Origin: Streptomyces sp. NBC_01723
GTDB taxonomy: Bacteria; Actinomycetota; Actinomycetes; Streptomycetales; Streptomycetaceae
NCBI RefSeq assembly: GCF_036246005.1
Contig: NZ_CP109171.1
Location: 7,366,001-7,430,000, forward strand
Direction of reading: 5' to 3'
Length of the DNA: 64,000 bases
A program made the translations under genes and the position numbers. Numbering within the stretch: position 1 is the first letter of the stretch; the number at the start of each line of letters is the position of its first letter. Below the pieces are notes generated by a model. That model was not told where the DNA came from. It made no database searches and worked only from the letters and a program-made list of their open reading frames with translations. Of the stretch, positions 51,975-61,919 are shown one piece after another.

Positions 51975-52059
51975 GTCCGGGTGGCGGAATGGCAGACGCG
52001 CTAGCTTGAGGTGCTAGTGCCCTTTATCGGGCGTGGGGGTTCAAGTCCCCCCTCGGACA
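51975..52059 (+). tRNA. tRNA-Leu (GAG)
   Basis: An 85-nt class II tRNA with a long variable arm. The acceptor stem gtccggg pairs with ctcggac with one G-U. The D-arm is gtggcggaatggcagac. The anticodon stem ctagc/gctag encloses ttgaggt, giving anticodon GAG. The variable arm is gccctttatcgggc and the T-arm is ggggttcaagtcccc. The 3' CCA is not encoded. A tatggt-like -10 element lies at 51922-51927. Confidence 0.95.
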
Positions 52060-52105
52060 CTTTCTTTTGCATTTGAGGCGTCGTTCCACGGGGTAGAGGC
52101 CCCGT

Positions 52106-53209
52106 GTGAGAACGGGCCGAGGGGGAGCGGACGGGCTGGACATCGCCCGGGTCGCGGAGATGATCGTCGGCCGCCCCGGCGGCGTCACCGGACGCAGAGG
52201 ATCCGGTTACCGCGTCACCGAACGGCACGTCCTCACCGCCGCCCACCTGGTCGAGCCCTCGCCGGTCACGCTCAAGGTCCGCTTCGACGCCGACCACCCC
52301 ACCGAGTGGTCCACCGAAGCCCGGGTCGTGCTCAGCTCCCGCCCCGCCGACCTGGCTCTGCTGGAACTCACCGGCGCGCTCCCCGAGACCCGCCCGGTCC
52401 ACCACGCGCCCCGCTACGCCGTCCTGCCCGACGAGGCCGTCACACTCCCCGTCACCGCCGTGGGATTCCCCCGCTTCAAACTGCGCGAGTACAGCGGAGC
52501 CGACGAACACGGCACCGGCGGCCCGCCCGCCCGGTACCGGGACTCCTGCCACGTCGACGGAACGGTGTCCGCACTCTCCAACCGCCGGGCCGGCACCCTG
52601 GAGGTCGCCGTCCCGCCCCCGGCCGACGACGTCGAACCCGACCGGTCACCCTGGGAGGGGATGTCCGGCGCGCCCCTCTGGTCCGACGGCGCGATCATCG
52701 GCCTGATCACCACCCACCACCGCTCCGACGGTCTCGGGCGCCTCGCGGCGATGCGGGTGAAGCGCTGGTACGAGCTGCTGACCCCGGCCGAACTGGACAT
52801 CCTCCGAACCCGCGCGGGCCTCCCGGACCGTCCCGGACCGGTGGCCGCCCCCGAGCCCGGGACGGCGCACCGGCACCCGTCCGCCGATCCTCCGTCCCTC
52901 GCCTCGTTGCCGCACACGCTCACCCTCGGCGAACTCCGCCACCTGGTCGACGCGTTGACCGCACTGCCCACACTCCGCCGGTCGAACGGCCTCGACGCCG
53001 TCCTGGCCGGAATCGACCCCCGGGTGGCCGCCCACCGGCCGCGCGACGACCGGCTGAGGTTCGAGGTGTACGGCGTGCTGCGCACGTGCCTGCGCTTTCC
53101 CGGCACCCTCGACACGTTCCTGGCGGAGTTGCGGACCTGGGAGGAGGGCTCCGAGGAACTGCGCGAGGTCGACCGTGCGATGGCCGAACTGGCCCTGCGG
53201 CACAACTGA
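52106..53209 (+). CDS. Trypsin-like serine protease with C-terminal effector-associated domain
   Basis: A 367-residue soluble protease without signal peptide. The chymotrypsin-fold triad is visible: His47 in LTAAHLV, Asp82 in PADLALLEL and Ser187 in EGMSGAPL. After a Pro-rich linker the last ~90 residues (LRHLVDALTALPTL onward) look like effector-associated domain 2 (EAD2), an adaptor found in bacterial NTP-dependent conflict systems. The predicted partner is the VMAP-C protein at 59617-61104, which seems to carry a related N-terminal adaptor. The protease would be the effector released on activation. The GTG start is 46 bases after the tRNA. Confidence 0.8.
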   Translation: MRTGRGGADGLDIARVAEMIVGRPGGVTGRRGSGYRVTERHVLTAAHLVEPSPVTLKVRFDADHPTEWSTEARVVLSSRPADLALLELTGALPETRPVHHAPRYAVLPDEAVTLPVTAVGFPRFKLREYSGADEHGTGGPPARYRDSCHVDGTVSALSNRRAGTLEVAVPPPADDVEPDRSPWEGMSGAPLWSDGAIIGLITTHHRSDGLGRLAAMRVKRWYELLTPAELDILRTRAGLPDRPGPVAAPEPGTAHRHPSADPPSLASLPHTLTLGELRHLVDALTALPTLRRSNGLDAVLAGIDPRVAAHRPRDDRLRFEVYGVLRTCLRFPGTLDTFLAELRTWEEGSEELREVDRAMAELALRHN

Positions 53210-53328
53210 CTTGATGCCGCAGCTGGCCGGTACACAGGTTTCGGGCCGCCTCCCCCTGGGTCATGATGAAGGAGGAACGAGGGCGCGTGGAGGACGACGG
53301 CGCGTAAGAGACCATACGGGGAGGGGAC

Positions 53329-53526
53329 TTGGCAGCCGTGGAGCGGGCGACGCCGGCCTTTGAGTCCGGACTCATCGACCTCTCGGGAGTATCTCTCGAA
53401 GCGTTGCGTTCTCTTGACGGGCCAGTCCTGTCCGCGTCTCTCGAACGGTTGCTGGCCGATGTCGACGATCCCCACGCGATCACGGTCGCGGGCGTCAACC
53501 AGACGCACACAGGGCTCGGAAACTAG
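53329..53526 (+). CDS. FxsA-like RiPP precursor with degenerate tail
   Basis: A 65-residue peptide (TTG start, GGGGAG 5 bases upstream; GTG 53338 gives a 62-mer). The leader part LIDLSGVSLEALRSLDGPVL plus SASLERLLADVDDP matches the FxSxx-COOH precursor family. That family usually ends in AGFNSxx-type sequence. Here the tail is ITVAGVNQTHTGLGN: Phe is replaced by Val, the motif is gone, and no aromatic residue is left in the core. It sits 29 bases before the HExxH gene. Whether it is still modified is unknown. Confidence 0.7.
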   Translation: MAAVERATPAFESGLIDLSGVSLEALRSLDGPVLSASLERLLADVDDPHAITVAGVNQTHTGLGN

Positions 53527-53555
53527 GACCGTAGCCGTGTGCGGGGGGAGTACGA

Positions 53556-55442
53556 GTGGGTCCCACGGAGAGCACGCCTGCCGGGCGATCCGTTTTCCAC
53601 GGCATCTCGGAGACCGGCCTGCGCGGGCTCGTGCGGGGCGGCGGCGACGGTGACGTCGTCGAGGAGTTGCTGAGCGCCGAGCGCAGTCGCCGGCTCCTGC
53701 TGCTCCGGGCCCTGCTGGACCGCAGCGCCGAACAGGCGATCGGACAGGCGATCGGACACGAGGGGGAACGGCCGCTGTCCGTCCAGGACGCCTGGGACCT
53801 CCTCGAACGTGCCCAGGCCCGGGCCCCGGGGGTGGTCGACGGCGTCCTGATGGCACCGGGGACCGGTACCTGGCTGTCGTCGGCGCTTCGGCTGCTGAAT
53901 GGTGCCCCCCAGGGCGAGGCCTCAGTCCGGCGCACGCTGGGACATCTGTCCGCCCTGGCCGTCGCGGGCGCCGCCGGTGCCCGCATCCGCTTCGCCCTGT
54001 GGGTCCCGGTGAGCGAGGGAATGGTTTCCCTTCCCGGCCTGGGATGCGCGGTCCTGCCCGGCGCGGGAGGGCGGACGGCGGTGCGTGTCACCGGGGACGG
54101 GGAGCGCCTGCGCATCAGCGGACCGGACGGCGACGTGGTGGTCGGACCCGAGTGGGAGCGTCGCACTCCCGGCTGGCGGCCCACCCGTCGGCTCACGCTG
54201 GGACGTGGTGACGCCGCGGGCTCACTGGCACTGGAAGAACACGACCCCTTTCGCATGTTCTCCGGACCCACCACGCCGAGCGCCCTGTCCGATCAGGAGG
54301 CCGCCGCCTGGCAGGGCGCGGTCGACGAGGCGTGGGACCTGCTGCGCGACGACCCGGACCTGACGGAAGCGATGCGCCGAGGCTTGAGGTCCATCACTCC
54401 CGTGCCCAGAGGAGAAAGGTTTCGGCCATACAGCAGCTCCTCCGCGGAGGCTTTCGGCGCGGTCAACGCCTCGCTGCCCGACGAGGGAGCGGAACTGGCC
54501 GCCACCCTGGTGCACGAGTTCCAGCACATCAAACTCGGCGCGCTCACCCACCTCGGGCCTCTGGTCACCCGGACCGACAAGACCGACGAGCCGCCGCGGT
54601 TGTTCCACGCGCCGTGGCGGGACGACCCACGTCCGCTGGAGGGCCTCCTCCAGGGGATCTACGCCTTCTTCGGCGTGACCCGCTTCTGGCGTGCCCACCG
54701 GCACGTCGCCGACACGGCGCACGAGCCGCTGGCGCACTTCGAGTTCGCCCTGTGGCGGGACGCGGTGTGGTCGACGCTCGACAGCGCCCGCGGCCACGAG
54801 CGGTTGACGGCCCTGGGGAACCGGCTCCTGGAATCCCTGGCCCAGATCTGTGCCGGATGGCTCACCGAGCGCCTTCCCGCCGAGGAGCTGCGGCTGGCGC
54901 GTGAGGCGACCACCAGCCATCGGGCCCGGTGGCGCGAACACCATCTGCGCCCCTGCGCCGACGTGGTGGACGAGGCGGTACGCGCCTGGCGACGGGGGGA
55001 GAGCTGCCCGCCGTCCCTTCGGACCGCACCGTCGTCCCTGCGGCCGGACCCCGACGCCTGCTTCCTGGACACGGCGGCGGTGCTGGCCCGGCACCGCCTG
55101 ACCGATCCGGACGGCCCGTGGCGGGACCCCGGTACGGCCGCTGTGCGAGGGGCCGGAGCGGTGGACGTCCTGCTGGCCGGCGGTGCCCGCTCGGACGCTC
55201 GGCGGATTCTCACGGACCAACTGCTGCAGGACGACCCTCCGGTGGGGTCCTGGGCCGCGCTGGGACGGGCCACGGCCGACGACCCGGAACGGCGGGCCGC
55301 CGCCTGCTTCCTGCTCGGGTCGCCCCAATGGGCCCGGGCCGTGCGGGACACCCTGGCCGCCGAGCACGGCGAGCGGCCCGAGCCGATGGCACTCGCCGCG
55401 TGGCTCAGCCGCGCCGGGCAGCAGCCCCGGCCCGCGGCCTGA
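53556..55442 (+). CDS. HExxH-motif protein, peptide beta-hydroxylase-like
   Basis: A 628-residue soluble protein with HEFQH at residues 320-324 (in ATLVHEFQHIKLGAL). It has C-terminal helical repeats resembling the HExxH region that in FxsB-type RiPP enzymes is fused to a radical SAM domain. Family members can be alpha-ketoglutarate-dependent peptide beta-hydroxylases rather than proteases. No CxxxCxxC radical SAM motif or SPASM cysteines are present here or elsewhere in the window. GTG 53556 has GGGGGGAG 5 bases upstream. Its position after the FxsA-like gene makes that peptide the expected substrate. Confidence 0.72.
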   Translation: MGPTESTPAGRSVFHGISETGLRGLVRGGGDGDVVEELLSAERSRRLLLLRALLDRSAEQAIGQAIGHEGERPLSVQDAWDLLERAQARAPGVVDGVLMAPGTGTWLSSALRLLNGAPQGEASVRRTLGHLSALAVAGAAGARIRFALWVPVSEGMVSLPGLGCAVLPGAGGRTAVRVTGDGERLRISGPDGDVVVGPEWERRTPGWRPTRRLTLGRGDAAGSLALEEHDPFRMFSGPTTPSALSDQEAAAWQGAVDEAWDLLRDDPDLTEAMRRGLRSITPVPRGERFRPYSSSSAEAFGAVNASLPDEGAELAATLVHEFQHIKLGALTHLGPLVTRTDKTDEPPRLFHAPWRDDPRPLEGLLQGIYAFFGVTRFWRAHRHVADTAHEPLAHFEFALWRDAVWSTLDSARGHERLTALGNRLLESLAQICAGWLTERLPAEELRLAREATTSHRARWREHHLRPCADVVDEAVRAWRRGESCPPSLRTAPSSLRPDPDACFLDTAAVLARHRLTDPDGPWRDPGTAAVRGAGAVDVLLAGGARSDARRILTDQLLQDDPPVGSWAALGRATADDPERRAAACFLLGSPQWARAVRDTLAAEHGERPEPMALAAWLSRAGQQPRPAA

Positions 55443-55447
55443 ACGCC

Positions 55448-55483
55448 GCGAGGGCCGCACGGCACCCGCCGCGCGGCCCTCGC
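55448..55483. terminator. Hairpin between convergent HExxH and TPR genes
   Basis: A perfect 11-bp inverted repeat (gcgagggccgc at 55448-55458 and gcggccctcgc at 55473-55483) in the 82-base space between two convergent stops. It is likely a bidirectional terminator. Confidence 0.65.
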
Positions 55484-55524
55484 AGGTCCCGGTTCGCCCC
55501 CTCAGGGGGCGAGGAACCGTACCG

Positions 55525-58500
55525 TCACAACGGCATCGGGTCGATGTCGCAGTTGGCCCGCACGCCGTTCATGACGGCCACGGTCGCCGGGTGGGGCGCT
55601 GCCTCTTCCTGCTCCTCGTGCTGGGCGCCGAGCACCCGGCCCATGCGCTCCAGCGTGTCGGCCCGCATCGTCTCCCCTTCGTCCCCCTGGCCGACGGCCA
55701 CCAGGTCCAGAGAGAGGTTCGCGGCACAGGCGAGCGTGGTCGGGTGGTCGGGACCGAAGGTCTGCCTGCACCGCGCCAGTGTGTCCCGCCCGCCGGACAC
55801 CGCGTCGTCGAGTTCCCCGAGCGCGGCCAGGTCACTGGCCAGGTTCACGGCGGCCACCAGCGTGAAGGGGTGGTCGGCGCCGAGGGTCTCGGTCAGCCCG
55901 GCGAGCGCCTCGTCGTCCAGGCGCCGGGCCTCGGCGGGCCGCTCCAGCAGCCGCTCGGACACCGCGAGGCCGACGTCGGCGGCCAGCGTGTAGGGGTGTT
56001 GCGGGTGGAAGACCTTGCGGTAGCCCGCGCAGGCCTGGGCGCCACGCGCCCGCGCCGCTTCCAGGTCGCCGTTCTGACGCAGGGCGATGGCAAGGGGCAG
56101 CGCCGTGGCCAGGGACTGCGGGTGGGTGTCCCCGTACCGTCGGGTGAACGCCTCGTGGGCCTTGATGGCCAGGTCCAGCGCACGCGGGTGGTTGCCGGCC
56201 TTGCGGCACGCGATGCCCAGTTCCCGCTCGGTGCTGACGGTGGCCGGGTTGTCGTTGCCGAAGACGTCCCGGAACGCTTCCAGCGCCGCCTCCTGGAGCC
56301 GGAGCGCGCCGATGTAGTCACCCGACTCGCGGACGTCGATCGCGATCGAGTTCTCGGTGATGAGGCTCCGCTGGTCATCGCGCCCGAACAGACGCAGCTT
56401 CAGGTGCCAGGTCTTCCGGTCGAGTTGCAGCGCCTCGTGGAACTCACCCGACAGGCGCAGACTCACGCCCAGGTTGTGCGCCATGTTCAGGCTCGCCGGG
56501 TCGTCGTCGCCGAACGCCCGGTGCGCCCGGTCGTGGACCAGCCGGTCCAGCTCGGCGCCCTCGAGGAAGCGGCCCTGGGCGCGTCGCACGGCGGCCTCCA
56601 TCTGGGCCGCGTCCAGCGACTCCTCGCTGTCGGGCGACGAGACGCGCTCGTGGACGCTGCGGATGTGCTCCACCAGGGTGGAGGCGTCGGTGTACCGGCC
56701 GACCATCAGGTAGACGAAGACCAGCCAGCGCCCCATCAGGAGGGTCTGCACGTCCTCCTCCCCGAACCGGTTCACCCAGGCGTTCCAGGCCGTTTCGGAG
56801 AAGTCCAGCGAGACCTCGTGGTCCCCCCAGTAGTAGAGGTACTTGGCGATGTTCATCACCAGCTGGCGCATCCAGGGCTGGTCGGAGGTGACGGCGCCGG
56901 ATGCGATCACATGGGTGTAGAGCTCCGCATACCGAGGCCAGCTCTCCGGGTCGGTCGGCGTCCTGGGATCCGCGGCCGCCATCAGGGCGTGGGCGCCTTC
57001 GCGCATGCGGTTCTGCTCCTCTGGGCTCATACGGTTGATCAGTACGTGCTGGACCAACCGGTGCATCTCGATGCTGTTCGTTCGGTGGTCGATTCGGGCG
57101 AGCGAGTATCGGTTGATCTCCCGTATCGCGCGAGCGAGCTTCATCGGGTCGTTCAGAGCCGCGTCCAGTTCGGGGAAGATGGTGTTGTACCCCGGGCCGG
57201 ACAGGATTTGCCTGGAGATCGGGTCGGGGGCGAAGTAGGAGCACAGCTGCAGCAGGCGCAGGGCGGCCGGGCTGCGGGTCTCCAGGTGGTCGAGCGAGAC
57301 GTTCCACGCCGCCGCGACGGGCAGTTGGTAGTCCGGCGGCGGTGCCGTCTCGAGCAGCTCGTTCTGCTTGCTCTCGAAGAGCCGCAGGTACTCGGAGGCC
57401 GGCATGCCGGTCTCGGCCCGCCAGGCGGCGGCCTGAACCAGGGCCAGCGGCAGGTCGCCCAGCGCCTCCGCCAGCGCCTCGGCCTCCTGGTCGGCCAGTT
57501 CCGGTCCCGAGCCGCGGAGCAGTTCCTTGCTCTCCTCGCGGGTGAACACGTCGACCTCCAGGGACCCGCCCACCAGGCCCCAGCGACGGTTGCGGGAGGT
57601 GACCAGGATCGTGCCGGTGCCTCCGGTCGGGAAGTACGGGCGTACCTGCTCGGGACTGTCCGCGTTGTCGAAGATCAGCAGCCACCGGGAGTACGGGCGC
57701 CCCTCGCGCAGTGCCTCCCGGACGGCCGGCCCGGCGATGTTCGCCTCGGACGTGGTCACCAGTCCCAGCCGTTTGGCCAGCTCCACCAGGGACTGGCCGA
57801 CCTGGCCCGGCCGCTCCGACGGGATCCACCACACGATGTCGTACTCGGACTGGTGCCGGTAGGCGTACTCGATCGCCAGCTGGGTCTTGCCGACACCGCC
57901 CATGCCGTGGATCGCCTCGGGCAGAACCGTGGTCGTGCCCTCCCGCAGCCGCTGGCCGAGCAGGTCCAGGAGCTCGCTGCGGCCGGTGAAGTTCTGGTTG
58001 CGCGGCGGCAGGTTCCCCCAGACGCGTGGCTGAACGGCGCGCTCTCCCTCCAAGGTGCGCTGGGGTGTGGTGGACATCGGGGTGGCTCCTTCGCTAGCTG
58101 CGGCAGCGGCGGTGGTCGGGGAGGGGGCGGTGGGCGGGACCTTGGCGAGCGGCACTGCATACCGCTGATCGTGCCATTTCAGGGCGTGGCGTAACAATTT
58201 GGCGCGCTGAATGTGTGAACCGGACAAAGCGGCCAGAGCCTTCAGTTCGATTCGGAGGAACGGCGCGTTCTCGCGGGTCACATTCGGCGGTGAGGGCTTG
58301 TACGACGCCTCGTCGGGCGGCGGGAGCAGGGATGCCGTGGCCGGGGAGGAGGCCAGCACCTCGCGGACGTCGTGCAGGGTGCGGATGGTCGCGGCGCGCC
58401 GCCCCTGCGCGAGCAGTTGCTCGCGGACGTCGGGAAGGAATTCGTAGACCACCGCCCCGGGGGCGTCTTCCTTGACGCCGGTGGGGCGGACCAGGCCGCT

Positions 58501-59421
58501 CATGAAGAACTCGGCGGCGTGCACCGGTCCGGCCCCGTGCGTCGACCGCATCACCCGGCGGATGACCGGCAGGCTGAGCGGCGCGGCGGCGAGACGGGTG
58601 CCGAGGCGGAAGGCGACGGGAGAGGCCGCGGCACGGAAATCGAACACCCGGTCGGAGGCGGACGGCGGACTCTTTGTCGAGGGGGACTCGGCGGCCCACG
58701 GGAGGACTCGTGCCGCGTCCGGCCGCCCCTTCCAGGTGTGTGCCTGCGTCACCGGCAGGTCCAGCGGGCCGGGCTGCGTCCCGGCGAGCACGTCGGAGAG
58801 GGCGCGCGCCCCGTGATGGGTCAGCGACAGGACGGGGACGGCGAGCCGGACCTCCTCGTCCTCGGCACCGCCCGGGTGGGCCGGAGCCGGAGCGTCGCCG
58901 GGGGCGACCGGAAGCTCCCGTTCGTGCCATTCCCAGTCGGCGTTGGCCGCCCACGGTCGATCCGTGCTGACCTGCGCGTGCAGTACGTCGAGGCCGGTGC
59001 GGAACCAGACGTGCGGCGGCAGCGGGTCGACCAGGGCGACGGGCCAGGACCCGGCCCAGCCCAGCAGCAGGGGCTGCACCGCGCCGAGGTGCCAGCCGGC
59101 CGCCAGGGCGTCCGTGACCACCAGGACCACCCGTCGCGTGCCGTCCGGGGGCATGCCGAACGGGCGCTCCGTGCGGACACGGGCGGGGAGCGCCTCGTCC
59201 GTGCCGAGCAGGGACACGACCCGGACCTCGGCGAAGCTCTCGGCGAGGGCCGCGGTCAGGGCGTCGACGACCTCGTCCCAGACCCGCATCGTCACATGCG
59301 AGTCGACCACGAGGACGGCTTCTCTGGGTGCCGTGTCGTCCTCGGGATGCCAGTCGCGCCACAGACGGGCCACGTCGGCCTCGGGCCGCAACCGCTCGTG
59401 CCGGTCACTGTCACTGGCCAT
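55525..59421 (-). CDS. FxSxx-COOH system NB-ARC/TPR protein
   Basis: A 1298-residue STAND-type protein. The N-terminal ~430 residues match the SAV_2336-like region of FxSxx-COOH system TPR proteins (VVDSHVTMRVWDEVVDALTA; WEWHERELPVA). An Ala/Pro/Thr linker leads to an NB-ARC ATPase with P-loop GMGGVGKTQLA at about residue 505 and sensor-like LLIFDNAD. Tetratricopeptide repeats of the TPR_10/12 type run from about 850 to 1270, and the chain ends RANCDIDPMPL. It probably senses a trigger and oligomerises. ATG 59421 is taken; GTG 59433 is possible. Confidence 0.82.
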   Translation of the reverse strand: MASDSDRHERLRPEADVARLWRDWHPEDDTAPREAVLVVDSHVTMRVWDEVVDALTAALAESFAEVRVVSLLGTDEALPARVRTERPFGMPPDGTRRVVLVVTDALAAGWHLGAVQPLLLGWAGSWPVALVDPLPPHVWFRTGLDVLHAQVSTDRPWAANADWEWHERELPVAPGDAPAPAHPGGAEDEEVRLAVPVLSLTHHGARALSDVLAGTQPGPLDLPVTQAHTWKGRPDAARVLPWAAESPSTKSPPSASDRVFDFRAAASPVAFRLGTRLAAAPLSLPVIRRVMRSTHGAGPVHAAEFFMSGLVRPTGVKEDAPGAVVYEFLPDVREQLLAQGRRAATIRTLHDVREVLASSPATASLLPPPDEASYKPSPPNVTRENAPFLRIELKALAALSGSHIQRAKLLRHALKWHDQRYAVPLAKVPPTAPSPTTAAAAASEGATPMSTTPQRTLEGERAVQPRVWGNLPPRNQNFTGRSELLDLLGQRLREGTTTVLPEAIHGMGGVGKTQLAIEYAYRHQSEYDIVWWIPSERPGQVGQSLVELAKRLGLVTTSEANIAGPAVREALREGRPYSRWLLIFDNADSPEQVRPYFPTGGTGTILVTSRNRRWGLVGGSLEVDVFTREESKELLRGSGPELADQEAEALAEALGDLPLALVQAAAWRAETGMPASEYLRLFESKQNELLETAPPPDYQLPVAAAWNVSLDHLETRSPAALRLLQLCSYFAPDPISRQILSGPGYNTIFPELDAALNDPMKLARAIREINRYSLARIDHRTNSIEMHRLVQHVLINRMSPEEQNRMREGAHALMAAADPRTPTDPESWPRYAELYTHVIASGAVTSDQPWMRQLVMNIAKYLYYWGDHEVSLDFSETAWNAWVNRFGEEDVQTLLMGRWLVFVYLMVGRYTDASTLVEHIRSVHERVSSPDSEESLDAAQMEAAVRRAQGRFLEGAELDRLVHDRAHRAFGDDDPASLNMAHNLGVSLRLSGEFHEALQLDRKTWHLKLRLFGRDDQRSLITENSIAIDVRESGDYIGALRLQEAALEAFRDVFGNDNPATVSTERELGIACRKAGNHPRALDLAIKAHEAFTRRYGDTHPQSLATALPLAIALRQNGDLEAARARGAQACAGYRKVFHPQHPYTLAADVGLAVSERLLERPAEARRLDDEALAGLTETLGADHPFTLVAAVNLASDLAALGELDDAVSGGRDTLARCRQTFGPDHPTTLACAANLSLDLVAVGQGDEGETMRADTLERMGRVLGAQHEEQEEAAPHPATVAVMNGVRANCDIDPMPL

Positions 59422-59616
59422 GATCACGCCCACGGTTTCGCAGTCGAAGGGGTGTCGGGGGCGGGCCGCCTCCCGATCTGTCTCTGCTCCGCGTCACGAG
59501 GAGTGCCCCGAGCGAGGGCCGGCCTCCCCGCGGTCCGGGTGAGTGCCCGTACCCCACGGTCGGCGCACCTGGCATCACGAGTGCCCTCCCTTCTGACCCT
59601 GTCGGCGGCCCATCCC

Positions 59617-61104
59617 TCATCCGGCACGGTCGGGACCGCCGCCCGGTGCCGATGGGCCGGGCATGCGTTCCGGATCGTCGAGCAGCAGGGCCAGATGGCG
59701 CCCCACGTGCCCGTCCCAGCCCTCGGGGCCCAGCGCCAGAGCCCGGTCGCGCCACCGCCGTGTGCGCTCCAGTACGCCGGCCAGCCCGCGCTCCTGCAGG
59801 ATGTCCGCCGCCGCCTCCCGGAAGGCCGTCCCGGAGTCGCCCCGGTCCCAGACGATGGCCGGGATGCCGGACCGCAGCGCCGCCACGAACTCCTGCTGGG
59901 CGACGGGCGATTCGGTGCCCGGCGGTGCGCTGAGGACCAGACAGACGATCTGCTGGTCGTCCTTGAGCTCACGCTCGAGGTGGAAGGCGGACTGGTCCGG
60001 CGGGCTCCAGTGCGAGCGGCTCTCGGCCGGCCGGTCCTTGAGCTGCCGCCAGCGGTTGTTCCAGGGCCGGTGCCAGGCGGCCTTGCGCAGGCGTTCGAAG
60101 CTGCGTACCACCACGGTGTAGTCCATGACCAGGGGTGTGGGCACGGGCGCGTCGGCCTCCTTGTGCCACCACTCGACGGGTTCCGTCAGCAGCTCCCACG
60201 GCAGGATGAACTCGATCACCACGGGCTGGCGCAGATCGGACCAGCGTTCCTCGGCCTCCTGGACCAGCCTGTCCGCGGCGGCCGGAAGGCCGTCGCGGTG
60301 CAGCTTGACCGTCTCGCCGGGAATGGGATGCCAGCCGTCGGAGTCGGACTGACGCCAGTGCGCCACCCAGAAGTTGTCCGGGTCCACGCCGTCCGGTTCG
60401 AACTGGATCAGGAGATAGGCGGGGTGGAGCGAGGGCTCACCGGGCGGGGCGAAGTCGCCCTGCTGCCAGTCGGCCATCTCCTCCGCCAGCCCGCGGAGCT
60501 GAGCCTGTCTGCGGTTCCAGCGGCGTAAGTGCTCCGCCTCCTCGGTGCGTCCTTCCTTCACCAGGTGCTCGGCGGCCAGCGACAGGAACGCCATGGACGG
60601 CGGCAGTTCGTCCACCGCGGTGTTGTCGCCCGCCAGGCGCAGGAAGACCTCCCAGCCCGTGTCGCACCACTCCTGGAGTTCCTGGGTACGGGAATGGCTG
60701 GCCCGGCGCGCGAGGGCCGTCAGGAGGGACACGGAACGCAGTTCGTGCAGCAGGGGACGCAGCGGCCGCAGGTCGGTGTCCTTGAAGAAGGAGGTGGCCT
60801 CCCACTCGTCCACCAGGCGCCACAGGGCGAACAGGCCCACCGAGCCCTGCTCGGCGTACCCCAGGCAGCGGGCCAGTGTCTGCAGTCCCTCGTCGATCTC
60901 GGCGCATTTCTTCACCAGTTGCCGTGACCACAGGGCGAGCGGCTGGTCCTGGTGCGGGTCCACGGTCAGCCGCAGCTCCGACGAGAGGTCCTGGACCAGC
61001 ATCTCGGTGCCGGTCCGCCGGCGCACGGTGTCCGTCGTCGCGAGGACGCCCGCCATCTCTGCCAGAAGTTCGTTTCGAACGCGTGCGGCGCTGCGCCCCT
61101 CCAC
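59617..61104 (-). CDS. VMAP-C domain protein with N-terminal effector-associated adaptor
   Basis: A 495-residue protein. Residues ~5-90 (RNELLAEMAGVLATTDTVRRRTG onward) resemble an effector-associated adaptor domain. The C-terminal ~280 residues (AYLLIQFEPDGVDPDNFWVAHWRQ, VVIEFILPWELLTEPVEWW, DYTVVVRSFERL) match the vWA-MoxR-associated protein C-terminal domain (VMAP-C). VMAPs link an effector to an NTPase in ternary conflict systems, but no vWA or MoxR gene is in the window. GTG 61104, 4 bases after GGGGAGG, is favoured over ATG 61125, which has no ribosome site. Confidence 0.75.
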   Translation of the reverse strand: MEGRSAARVRNELLAEMAGVLATTDTVRRRTGTEMLVQDLSSELRLTVDPHQDQPLALWSRQLVKKCAEIDEGLQTLARCLGYAEQGSVGLFALWRLVDEWEATSFFKDTDLRPLRPLLHELRSVSLLTALARRASHSRTQELQEWCDTGWEVFLRLAGDNTAVDELPPSMAFLSLAAEHLVKEGRTEEAEHLRRWNRRQAQLRGLAEEMADWQQGDFAPPGEPSLHPAYLLIQFEPDGVDPDNFWVAHWRQSDSDGWHPIPGETVKLHRDGLPAAADRLVQEAEERWSDLRQPVVIEFILPWELLTEPVEWWHKEADAPVPTPLVMDYTVVVRSFERLRKAAWHRPWNNRWRQLKDRPAESRSHWSPPDQSAFHLERELKDDQQIVCLVLSAPPGTESPVAQQEFVAALRSGIPAIVWDRGDSGTAFREAAADILQERGLAGVLERTRRWRDRALALGPEGWDGHVGRHLALLLDDPERMPGPSAPGGGPDRAG

Positions 61105-61203
61105 CTGACCTCCCCCGGCCGTCATCGAGTTCGTCCGCGCCCGGTCCGGACAGCGTACGACTAGCCTTCCCACTGCGTCAGCGGCGCGAACAAGGCGGAA
61201 TCC

Positions 61204-61512
61204 TCAACGCTCCCCGTGCGCCTCGTCGTCCGAGACCAGCACGTGGCGGCGGGTTCCGTCGGGAGCCACCAGCGTGGGCTGCAGCGTGAGCGTGACGCGA
61301 TGCGTACGGGAGGAGGTGACGGACGCGTCGGCGTTCGCCTCGACCACCCAGAAGTTCACCTTGCCGCCGGCGCCACCGGTCCGGTCGATCGCGACGGTCG
61401 CCTCGATCTCCACGGGTCCCAGTTCGAAGCGGACCGGGCCGGGGCCCGCCGAAGTCAGTGCGGTGTTGAGCTGATCTCTCAACTCCCGCACCATGTCCGA
61501 TAGTTCAATCAT
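61204..61512 (-). CDS. Trypsin-co-occurring domain (Trypco2)-like small protein
   Basis: A 102-residue protein starting MIELSDMVRELRDQLNTAL, with GPVRFELGPVEIEATVAIDR and FWVVEANADASVTSSRTHRVTLTLQPT. This matches the pattern of the small Trypco2 domain encoded next to trypsin-like effectors in actinobacterial conflict systems. GGGAGG lies 5 bases before the ATG. The frame is open far upstream but without a supported start. It probably partners the protease encoded at 52106-53209, although the two genes are 8 kb apart. Confidence 0.75.
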   Translation of the reverse strand: MIELSDMVRELRDQLNTALTSAGPGPVRFELGPVEIEATVAIDRTGGAGGKVNFWVVEANADASVTSSRTHRVTLTLQPTLVAPDGTRRHVLVSDDEAHGER

Positions 61513-61919
61513 GGAGCCTCCCGGAACGACCGTGCGGGGCGATCTTACCGACCGCCGCGGGTGCTCCGGGCCACTCTCGCGGAGAAAGCTCCGTTGGGAT
61601 GAAGACTCGTCCGCACACTTTGGAAAAACGCGGTGCGCGGACCTCAACCGTCTCCCTACACTCACCACGACATCGAGACCGAGTGAGGGGAGCAGGGCCG
61701 TGCGCATCCGCACCGCTGCCGTCGTTCCCCCGTCCCGGTACGAGGTGATCCTGGTGTCCTCGGCCCTCCGGTGTCCGCCGCGCGGCCGGCACCGGACGCC
61801 CGCGACCGGTCTCTGACGTCCCGTCACGCATGCCCTGAGGGCCGTGACCTCATTCCGACGTGCCGCCCGTCCCGGGAATCGCGCCGCCCTGCTCGCAGAC
61901 CAGTGAAAGGCCACCGGCC
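61513..61919. other. 407-bp divergent intergenic region
   Basis: Lies between the Trypco2-like gene (minus) and the EF-G paralogue (plus). It is lower in GC around 61610-61680 than its surroundings. No convincing small gene, hairpin or operator was found. It must contain promoters for both directions, but I could not place -35/-10 elements with confidence. Confidence 0.6.

Follow-up and report, generated by a model that had tools for sequence, protein, structure and literature searches.

A short gene of Streptomyces sp. NBC_01723 encodes a peptide with an FxsA-like leader, and the gene that follows encodes an HExxH enzyme; the peptide does not end in FxSxx and the enzyme has no radical SAM partner, which raises the question of what such a pair makes. 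We analysed the pair in a window of 64,000 nucleotides (contig NZ_CP109171.1, positions 7,366,001 to 7,430,000), the whole stretch of DNA under study, and both genes are present there as originally predicted. The pair is genuine and under selection; it sits in a conflict module of a known kind, and its peptide has a derived ending. On balance, and with moderate confidence, we take the pair to supply peptide modification to a VMAP/STAND conflict island, the usual RxD ending having been replaced in this lineage.

The two genes belong to a set of six that fills window positions 52061-61624 (Table 1). In a draft genome of the same species (G277), both flanks match at 97-98% and lie 83 bases apart on one contig (empty-site region G277:C34:1998-5980). 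The match ends at 52060, the last base of tRNA-Leu, and restarts at 61625, while the rest of G277 gave just short or weak matches to the island stretch and none to the precursor. Because the six-gene set is missing from this same-species genome, we regard it as an island. No 12-mer is shared by its two edges (window 51975-61625 against G277). The listed ORF of the Trypco2 gene runs to 61914, past the island edge at 61625, and its domain occupies ORF residues 136-213. The gene content resembles bacterial conflict systems. The 1302-aa protein exceeds the cut-off of the 'FxSxx-COOH system TPR protein' model and combines a SAV_2336 N-terminal domain, NB-ARC and TPR repeats in one chain; from its sequence we read the SAV_2336 domain as vWA-like, and the vWA model gave no match to this protein. 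None of the six genes matched MoxR in Pfam or NCBIfam, hence the island is not a full ternary system, and PADLOC recognised neither the enzyme nor the STAND protein nor VMAP.

Table 1. Features of the island and its left border, in window positions
Feature	Position	Strand	Evidence or remark
tRNA-Leu (gag)	51975..52060	+	ARAGORN; 3' end = left island edge
Trypsin-like protease with effector-associated domain EAD2	52106..53209	+	Pfam Trypsin_2 42.8 bits, EAD2 48.4 bits
FxsA-like precursor peptide, 65 aa, TTG start	53329..53526	+	TIGR04268 26.5 bits (cut-off 28)
Precursor tail, residues 51-65, ITVAGVNQTHTGLGN	53479..53523	+	RxD of relatives absent
AlphaKG-HExxH-type enzyme without radical SAM, 628 aa	53556..55442	+	TIGR04267
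HEFQH motif, enzyme residues 320-324	54513..54527	+	
FxsT-like protein, 1302 aa	55525..59433	-	NF040586 882.5 bits, NF041121 206.6 bits; NB-ARC + TPR
VMAP protein: EAD2, VMAP-M0, VMAP-C	59617..61173	-	Pfam, VMAP-C 162.7 bits
Trypco2 gene, coding part inside island	61204..61624	-	Pfam Trypco2 87 bits

The original description of an HEFQH enzyme without radical SAM is borne out by the match to TIGR04267 (166.3 bits, cut-off 40), with the motif at residues 320-324. The second-best NCBIfam model, the FxsBH extension, scores half its cut-off, and in the whole genome the window gene is the single match of the HExxH model at E <= 0.001. The HExxH domain spans about residues 17-453 and is followed by an extra C-terminal helical part. 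H320, E321 and H324 are found in all 65 relatives, and the clade of the window enzyme keeps every one of the 28 columns with a conservation of 97% or more among these relatives, HExxH and the PWRxxPR region included. In the window, S. parvulus and S. viridiviolaceus the reading frame is open with every near-invariant residue in place. An AlphaFold2 model (mean pLDDT 83.7, 12 sequences) matches SjiH (22ob) and the HExxH domain of ChlBH (8s5f) far better than anything else, and the predicted fold is thus that of the solved HExxH oxygenase domains. The ChlBH paper is reportedly that of Morishita et al. from 2024. Judged by family and predicted fold, the enzyme is probably an iron(II)/alpha-ketoglutarate oxygenase.

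The TTG start of the precursor is preceded by a GGAGGGG stretch, and 29 bases separate the gene from the GTG start of the enzyme. Leader residues 16-48 align with positions 1-33 of the 44 positions of TIGR04268, the FxSxx-COOH precursor family (E 5.5e-6); the 26.5 bits narrowly miss the curated cut-off of 28, and the tail remains unaligned. In the whole genome the FxSxx model gave 7.7e-5 for the window peptide and 0.05 for the next match (150 of 654 first-look candidates scored). The FxSxx C-terminus is absent, and the tail reads ITVAGVNQTHTGLGN. It was described as having no aromatic residue, which is correct for Phe, Tyr and Trp; it does possess His60, and close relatives carry Tyr at this position (P0002, P0003, P0005, P0007, P0009 and P0010). 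T52 never varies among the peptide and its 17 aligned database relatives, and conservation is 90% or more at V53, A54, G55 and N57; tail conservation in near relatives thus extends to Asn57, but beyond it both sequence and length drift. One relative (P0015/L070) has Ser in place of Asn57, and another (P0017) retains an NNSRFD ending.

The enzyme-precursor pair is found again, among similar neighbouring genes, in named Streptomyces species as well as in Micromonosporaceae, which is more than chance; the closest named matches are S. parvulus and S. viridiviolaceus. Counting FxsB-linked and short forms, an enzyme match (E <= 0.001) was found in at least 107 of 150 same-genus genomes, a lower bound with eight candidates scored per genome, and a precursor match in 36 of 392. 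With each species represented by a single genome, a scan yielded 26 class loci (24 of them 20-22 kb long, two on short contigs) in Streptomyces, Micromonospora, Actinoplanes, Paractinoplanes, Plantactinospora and Virgisporangium. Homologues of the NB-ARC-TPR protein occur in 25 of these loci, of VMAP in 17 and of trypsin-EAD2 in nine (one weak). The NB-ARC-TPR match is without the N-terminal part in 7/25 loci, not counting L046, where the contig ends at that point. A small FxsA-like ORF adjoins 63 of the 65 enzymes in our tree (none was found at L029, and L098 was not in the scan).

Many precursors of this class end in R-x-D or R-x-E. The 64 precursors gave 59 distinct tails (last 14 residues), after exclusion of 12 repeats or near-copies, of L045, L046 and L048 (same loci as L017, L016 and L014), and of L091, L092 and L094-L097, six FxsB-adjoined loci where the stand-alone enzyme was unrecovered; L091, L092 and L097, which have a listed precursor, show no RxD tail. 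R-x-D/E lies within four residues of the end in 35/59 tails (2.4 in shuffled tails) and exactly at the end in 32/59 (0.5 in shuffled tails), a count that is biased since related genomes give several rows and the shuffle ignores relatedness. Typical endings are SGYNPQRLD in Micromonospora, GPPGRVD in Actinoplanes and Plantactinospora, and SYNPSRFD in Streptomyces. The remaining 24 tails comprise three from the window clade and 21 from other lineages (e.g. those ending in SGSC or SPDSCVS), and the absence of RxD is therefore not special to the lineage of the window. RxD in the wider class appears to be common, not universal. It is lacking from the window precursor and from the others in its four-member tree clade. 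When the window G-V-N-Q-T-H is matched by eye to the RxD tail G-Y-N-P-Q-R, Gly and Asn are kept, and Tyr, Arg and Asp of the RxD tails are gone. The window tail should be measured against the R-x-D ending found in its nearest relatives rather than against FxSxx.

The enzyme tree comprises 65 of the 77 recovered enzymes, the other 12 being same-locus repeats or near-copies. The window, S. parvulus, S. viridiviolaceus and G388 form one clade (support 100/100), sister to L014 with the tail SNPSRVE. The 16-row clade that encloses the window clade (100/100) has 12 further rows, each with R-x-D/E at or near the end, and RxD is hence the likely starting state. A single loss of RxD on the window branch would be the simplest reading of these tails. 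Just outside the 16-row clade RxD is also missing from L018, L049, L085 and L087, so this loss is not unique to the window clade.

The module itself has a precedent. Peptide-processing systems associated with VMAP-ternary systems were described by Kaur et al. 2020 (PMC7159879): each pairs a zincin with a small precursor, which is of FxSxx, RxD or acidic type, and a fourth precursor type is tied to FtsH systems. Radical SAM occurs with FxSxx precursors; with RxD and acidic ones, an AP-ATPase-TPR is fused to a vWA protein. Their account includes the RxD-type module without radical SAM, its enzyme being called a metallopeptidase. Since a radical-SAM-free zincin and peptide module of VMAP systems was already described in 2020, the idea of a new RiPP subclass goes too far. 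The window shares with the RxD-type module the HExxH/zincin gene with a small diverging precursor and no radical SAM, the AP-ATPase (NB-ARC)-TPR behind a region that is vWA-like in our own reading, and the adjoining VMAP, trypsin and Trypco2 genes; it differs in having neither an RxD ending nor a MoxR gene in the island, and in that we read the enzyme as an oxygenase rather than a peptidase. Compared with the alphaKG-HExxH hydroxylases ChlBH, SjiH, PflC/PosC and PesO (PflC, PosC and PesO by description, not by sequence), the window enzyme has about 175 extra C-terminal residues, is without a radical SAM, MNIO or nitroreductase partner, and sits in a conflict island. The FxSxx-COOH/FxsB systems (TIGR04268, TIGR04269) likewise have a homologous leader, an FxsT-like neighbour and HExxH genes, whereas the window is devoid of the FxSxx tail and of FxsB, and its enzyme falls on another branch of the enzyme tree.

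Since the alphaKG-HExxH protein is the only modifying enzyme linked to the peptide, we predict above all that the peptide is hydroxylated and gains no cyclophane; the hydroxylation-only product that was originally proposed is thereby supported in outline. We suggest that the enzyme holds the conserved precursor leader and that its hydroxylation target lies in the TVAGVN core, where Asn57 would be the best guess and Val56 or Thr59 the next, and that no cyclophane would be formed. The modified peptide could then be a signal or effector processed by the trypsin-EAD2 and VMAP proteins, and the NB-ARC-TPR protein could sense or amplify this signal as a STAND/VMAP switch. Hydroxylation, target site and role in signalling are all inferred, in the main from the enzyme family and fold, the intact conserved residues and the similar gene set in relatives, with PosC/PflC and PesO as precedents for peptide hydroxylation by HExxH enzymes. 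If true, side-chain hydroxylation, not peptidase cleavage, feeds a class of actinobacterial VMAP/STAND conflict systems. In open-licence PubMed Central text, we found alphaKG-HExxH chemistry in print from 2024 on and no paper that joins it with the enzyme of Kaur et al.

The strongest competing explanation, which we nevertheless consider unlikely, is that the enzyme cuts the precursor, either by oxidative backbone cleavage with amidation at A54-G55 or by plain hydrolysis, and leaves a short C-terminal peptide or an amidated remainder as the product. Kaur et al. view the enzyme as a metallopeptidase that frees a C-terminal peptide. According to Ouyang et al. (PMC12636437), the HExxH enzymes PflC and PosC act on leader-bearing peptides ending in ARMD, hydroxylate Gln (and Asn in a variant peptide) and cut at the C-terminal ARMD; PosC cleaves at Ala, and partly at Gly, before RMD, and PflC can hydrolyse the peptide if the leader is missing. 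The window tail does contain A54-G55, but the RxD context is missing from it. Bulkier residues, moreover, led to hydroxylation without cleavage by PosC, and the HExxH relatives in Ouyang et al. and in the nitrilobacillin preprint (PMC13060819) are oxygenases first. In that preprint, PesO hydroxylates the Pro just before R(V/T)DN in PesA.

Under the preferred reading, hydroxylation of the core, the role of RxD itself needs an explanation. Stand-alone HExxH enzymes of the RxD type might read RxD as a follower tag that the window clade would no longer need. That RxD resembles R(V/T)DN and the ARMD of PflA/PosA is our own observation and may be a coincidence, and the tag is weakened by the finding that PosC still cut its peptide after single replacement of Arg, Met or Asp (PMC12636437). 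Eight enzyme columns are conserved in the RxD rows and altered in all four window-clade rows; five of these (270, 297, 310, 351 and 403) fall inside the TIGR04267 match. Certain non-RxD rows from other lineages have the changed letter too, and common descent by itself could explain such a list of sites. We hold as a rather doubtful extension that alphaKG-HExxH enzymes widely have a C-terminal Arg-x-Asp as partner motif, that the enzyme (at sites such as 297, 351 and 403) and peptide of the window clade jointly abandoned it and the target moved to the Asn-centred TVAG(V/H)N core, and that the hydroxylated peptide triggers a bacterial NB-ARC switch. Comparison with the nested non-RxD clade is a convenient way to learn which features the enzyme reads.

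The absence of FxsB from the window was confirmed (tblastn with four FxsB proteins, no match at E <= 1e-5), and it was proposed that the cyclophane residue and the cyclase had been lost together, with hydroxylation alone remaining. The leader is homologous to those of FxSxx precursors and HExxH genes adjoining FxsB exist in the genus, yet a lineage that once had both FxSxx and FxsB seems very improbable here. An FxsB-like gene was found in none of the 26 class loci, and the same search detects one in 12 others among the 100 sequences scanned (three of these 12 supplied its queries). In a wider tree built by a quick method from 39 of the 65 enzymes and 12 further sequences, the 39 long stand-alone enzymes lie on one side of a branch and the 12 FxsB-linked or short ones on the opposite side (98 SH-aLRT). 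As the long stand-alone enzymes occupy a separate branch, any FxsB loss here was not recent, if it happened at all. The nearest relatives have RxD endings, and the joint-loss proposal is not upheld. It is improbable that the peptide lost a ring-forming partner; probably an Arg-x-Asp ending was replaced by a new one. Six further loci (L109-L114) have short HExxH enzymes of 426-449 aa, a candidate FxsA-like ORF with weak scores in five of the six, and no FxsB match within the fetched 6 kb; with their longer and different tails they are perhaps another form without FxsB.

Decay of the locus, with RxD lost as the peptide arm fell out of use, was also put forward at the outset and is scarcely credible in view of the selection on the pair. 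Between the window and S. parvulus the precursor shows 11 synonymous changes and one non-synonymous change (dN/dS 0.031, the lowest of eight genes compared), a sign of purifying selection on the peptide. Tail codons 51-65 contain four synonymous and no amino-acid changes, and the chance of all four being synonymous is 0.005-0.008 for this one species pair. The tail of S. viridiviolaceus, which ends after His60, differs by two synonymous and no amino-acid changes, and that of G388 by two amino-acid changes in seven comparable codons, one of them Asn57 to Ser. The loss of RxD, the variable tail length and the enzyme dN/dS (0.258 overall, 0.176 in the catalytic part) above those of VMAP (0.09) and the STAND protein (0.157) could fit decay; the trypsin protein has 0.286. 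However, the open enzyme frame with its near-invariant residues all kept in the three species argues against it, as does the unchanged tail. The new ending appears, from these codon comparisons, to be kept by selection.

The genome, of 8.85 Mb, does encode an FxsB-family radical SAM gene (G000:C1:5423329-5424429; 430 bits, cut-off 370) at 2 Mb from the window. It is the only one over the cut-off; a second match is weak. The small ORF directly upstream (region G000:C1:5421829-5425929, L001:1275-2637) ends in VVAHYEDAP and is not an FxSxx peptide; with the model for YxD-tail cyclophane peptides it gives a weak match of 39 bits, under the cut-off of 55. The genome-wide search for FxsB thus yields a homologue, but one with its own YxD-like peptide rather than an FxSxx precursor, and the two probably form a separate YxD-type cyclophane system. 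That this enzyme additionally modifies the window precursor in trans is a most improbable idea, for which the presence of one such enzyme in the genome and the Tyr at position 60 of close precursor relatives speak, and against which stand the distance, the peptide ORF directly before the FxsB gene and the window tail devoid of Phe, Tyr and Trp.

Two FxsA-like precursor genes each are found in G101 (C1:7535705-7541031), G196, G316, G301, G159 and G370, about 1.5-2 kb apart on opposite strands, and G101 has two enzymes as well. In S. parvulus (L042:5414-8377), a further ORF of 987 aa with a start that looks P-loop-like by eye lies between the same tRNA-Leu and the trypsin gene, followed by the same genes as in the window, and with this extra ORF the tRNA-Leu site may be one that collects conflict genes.
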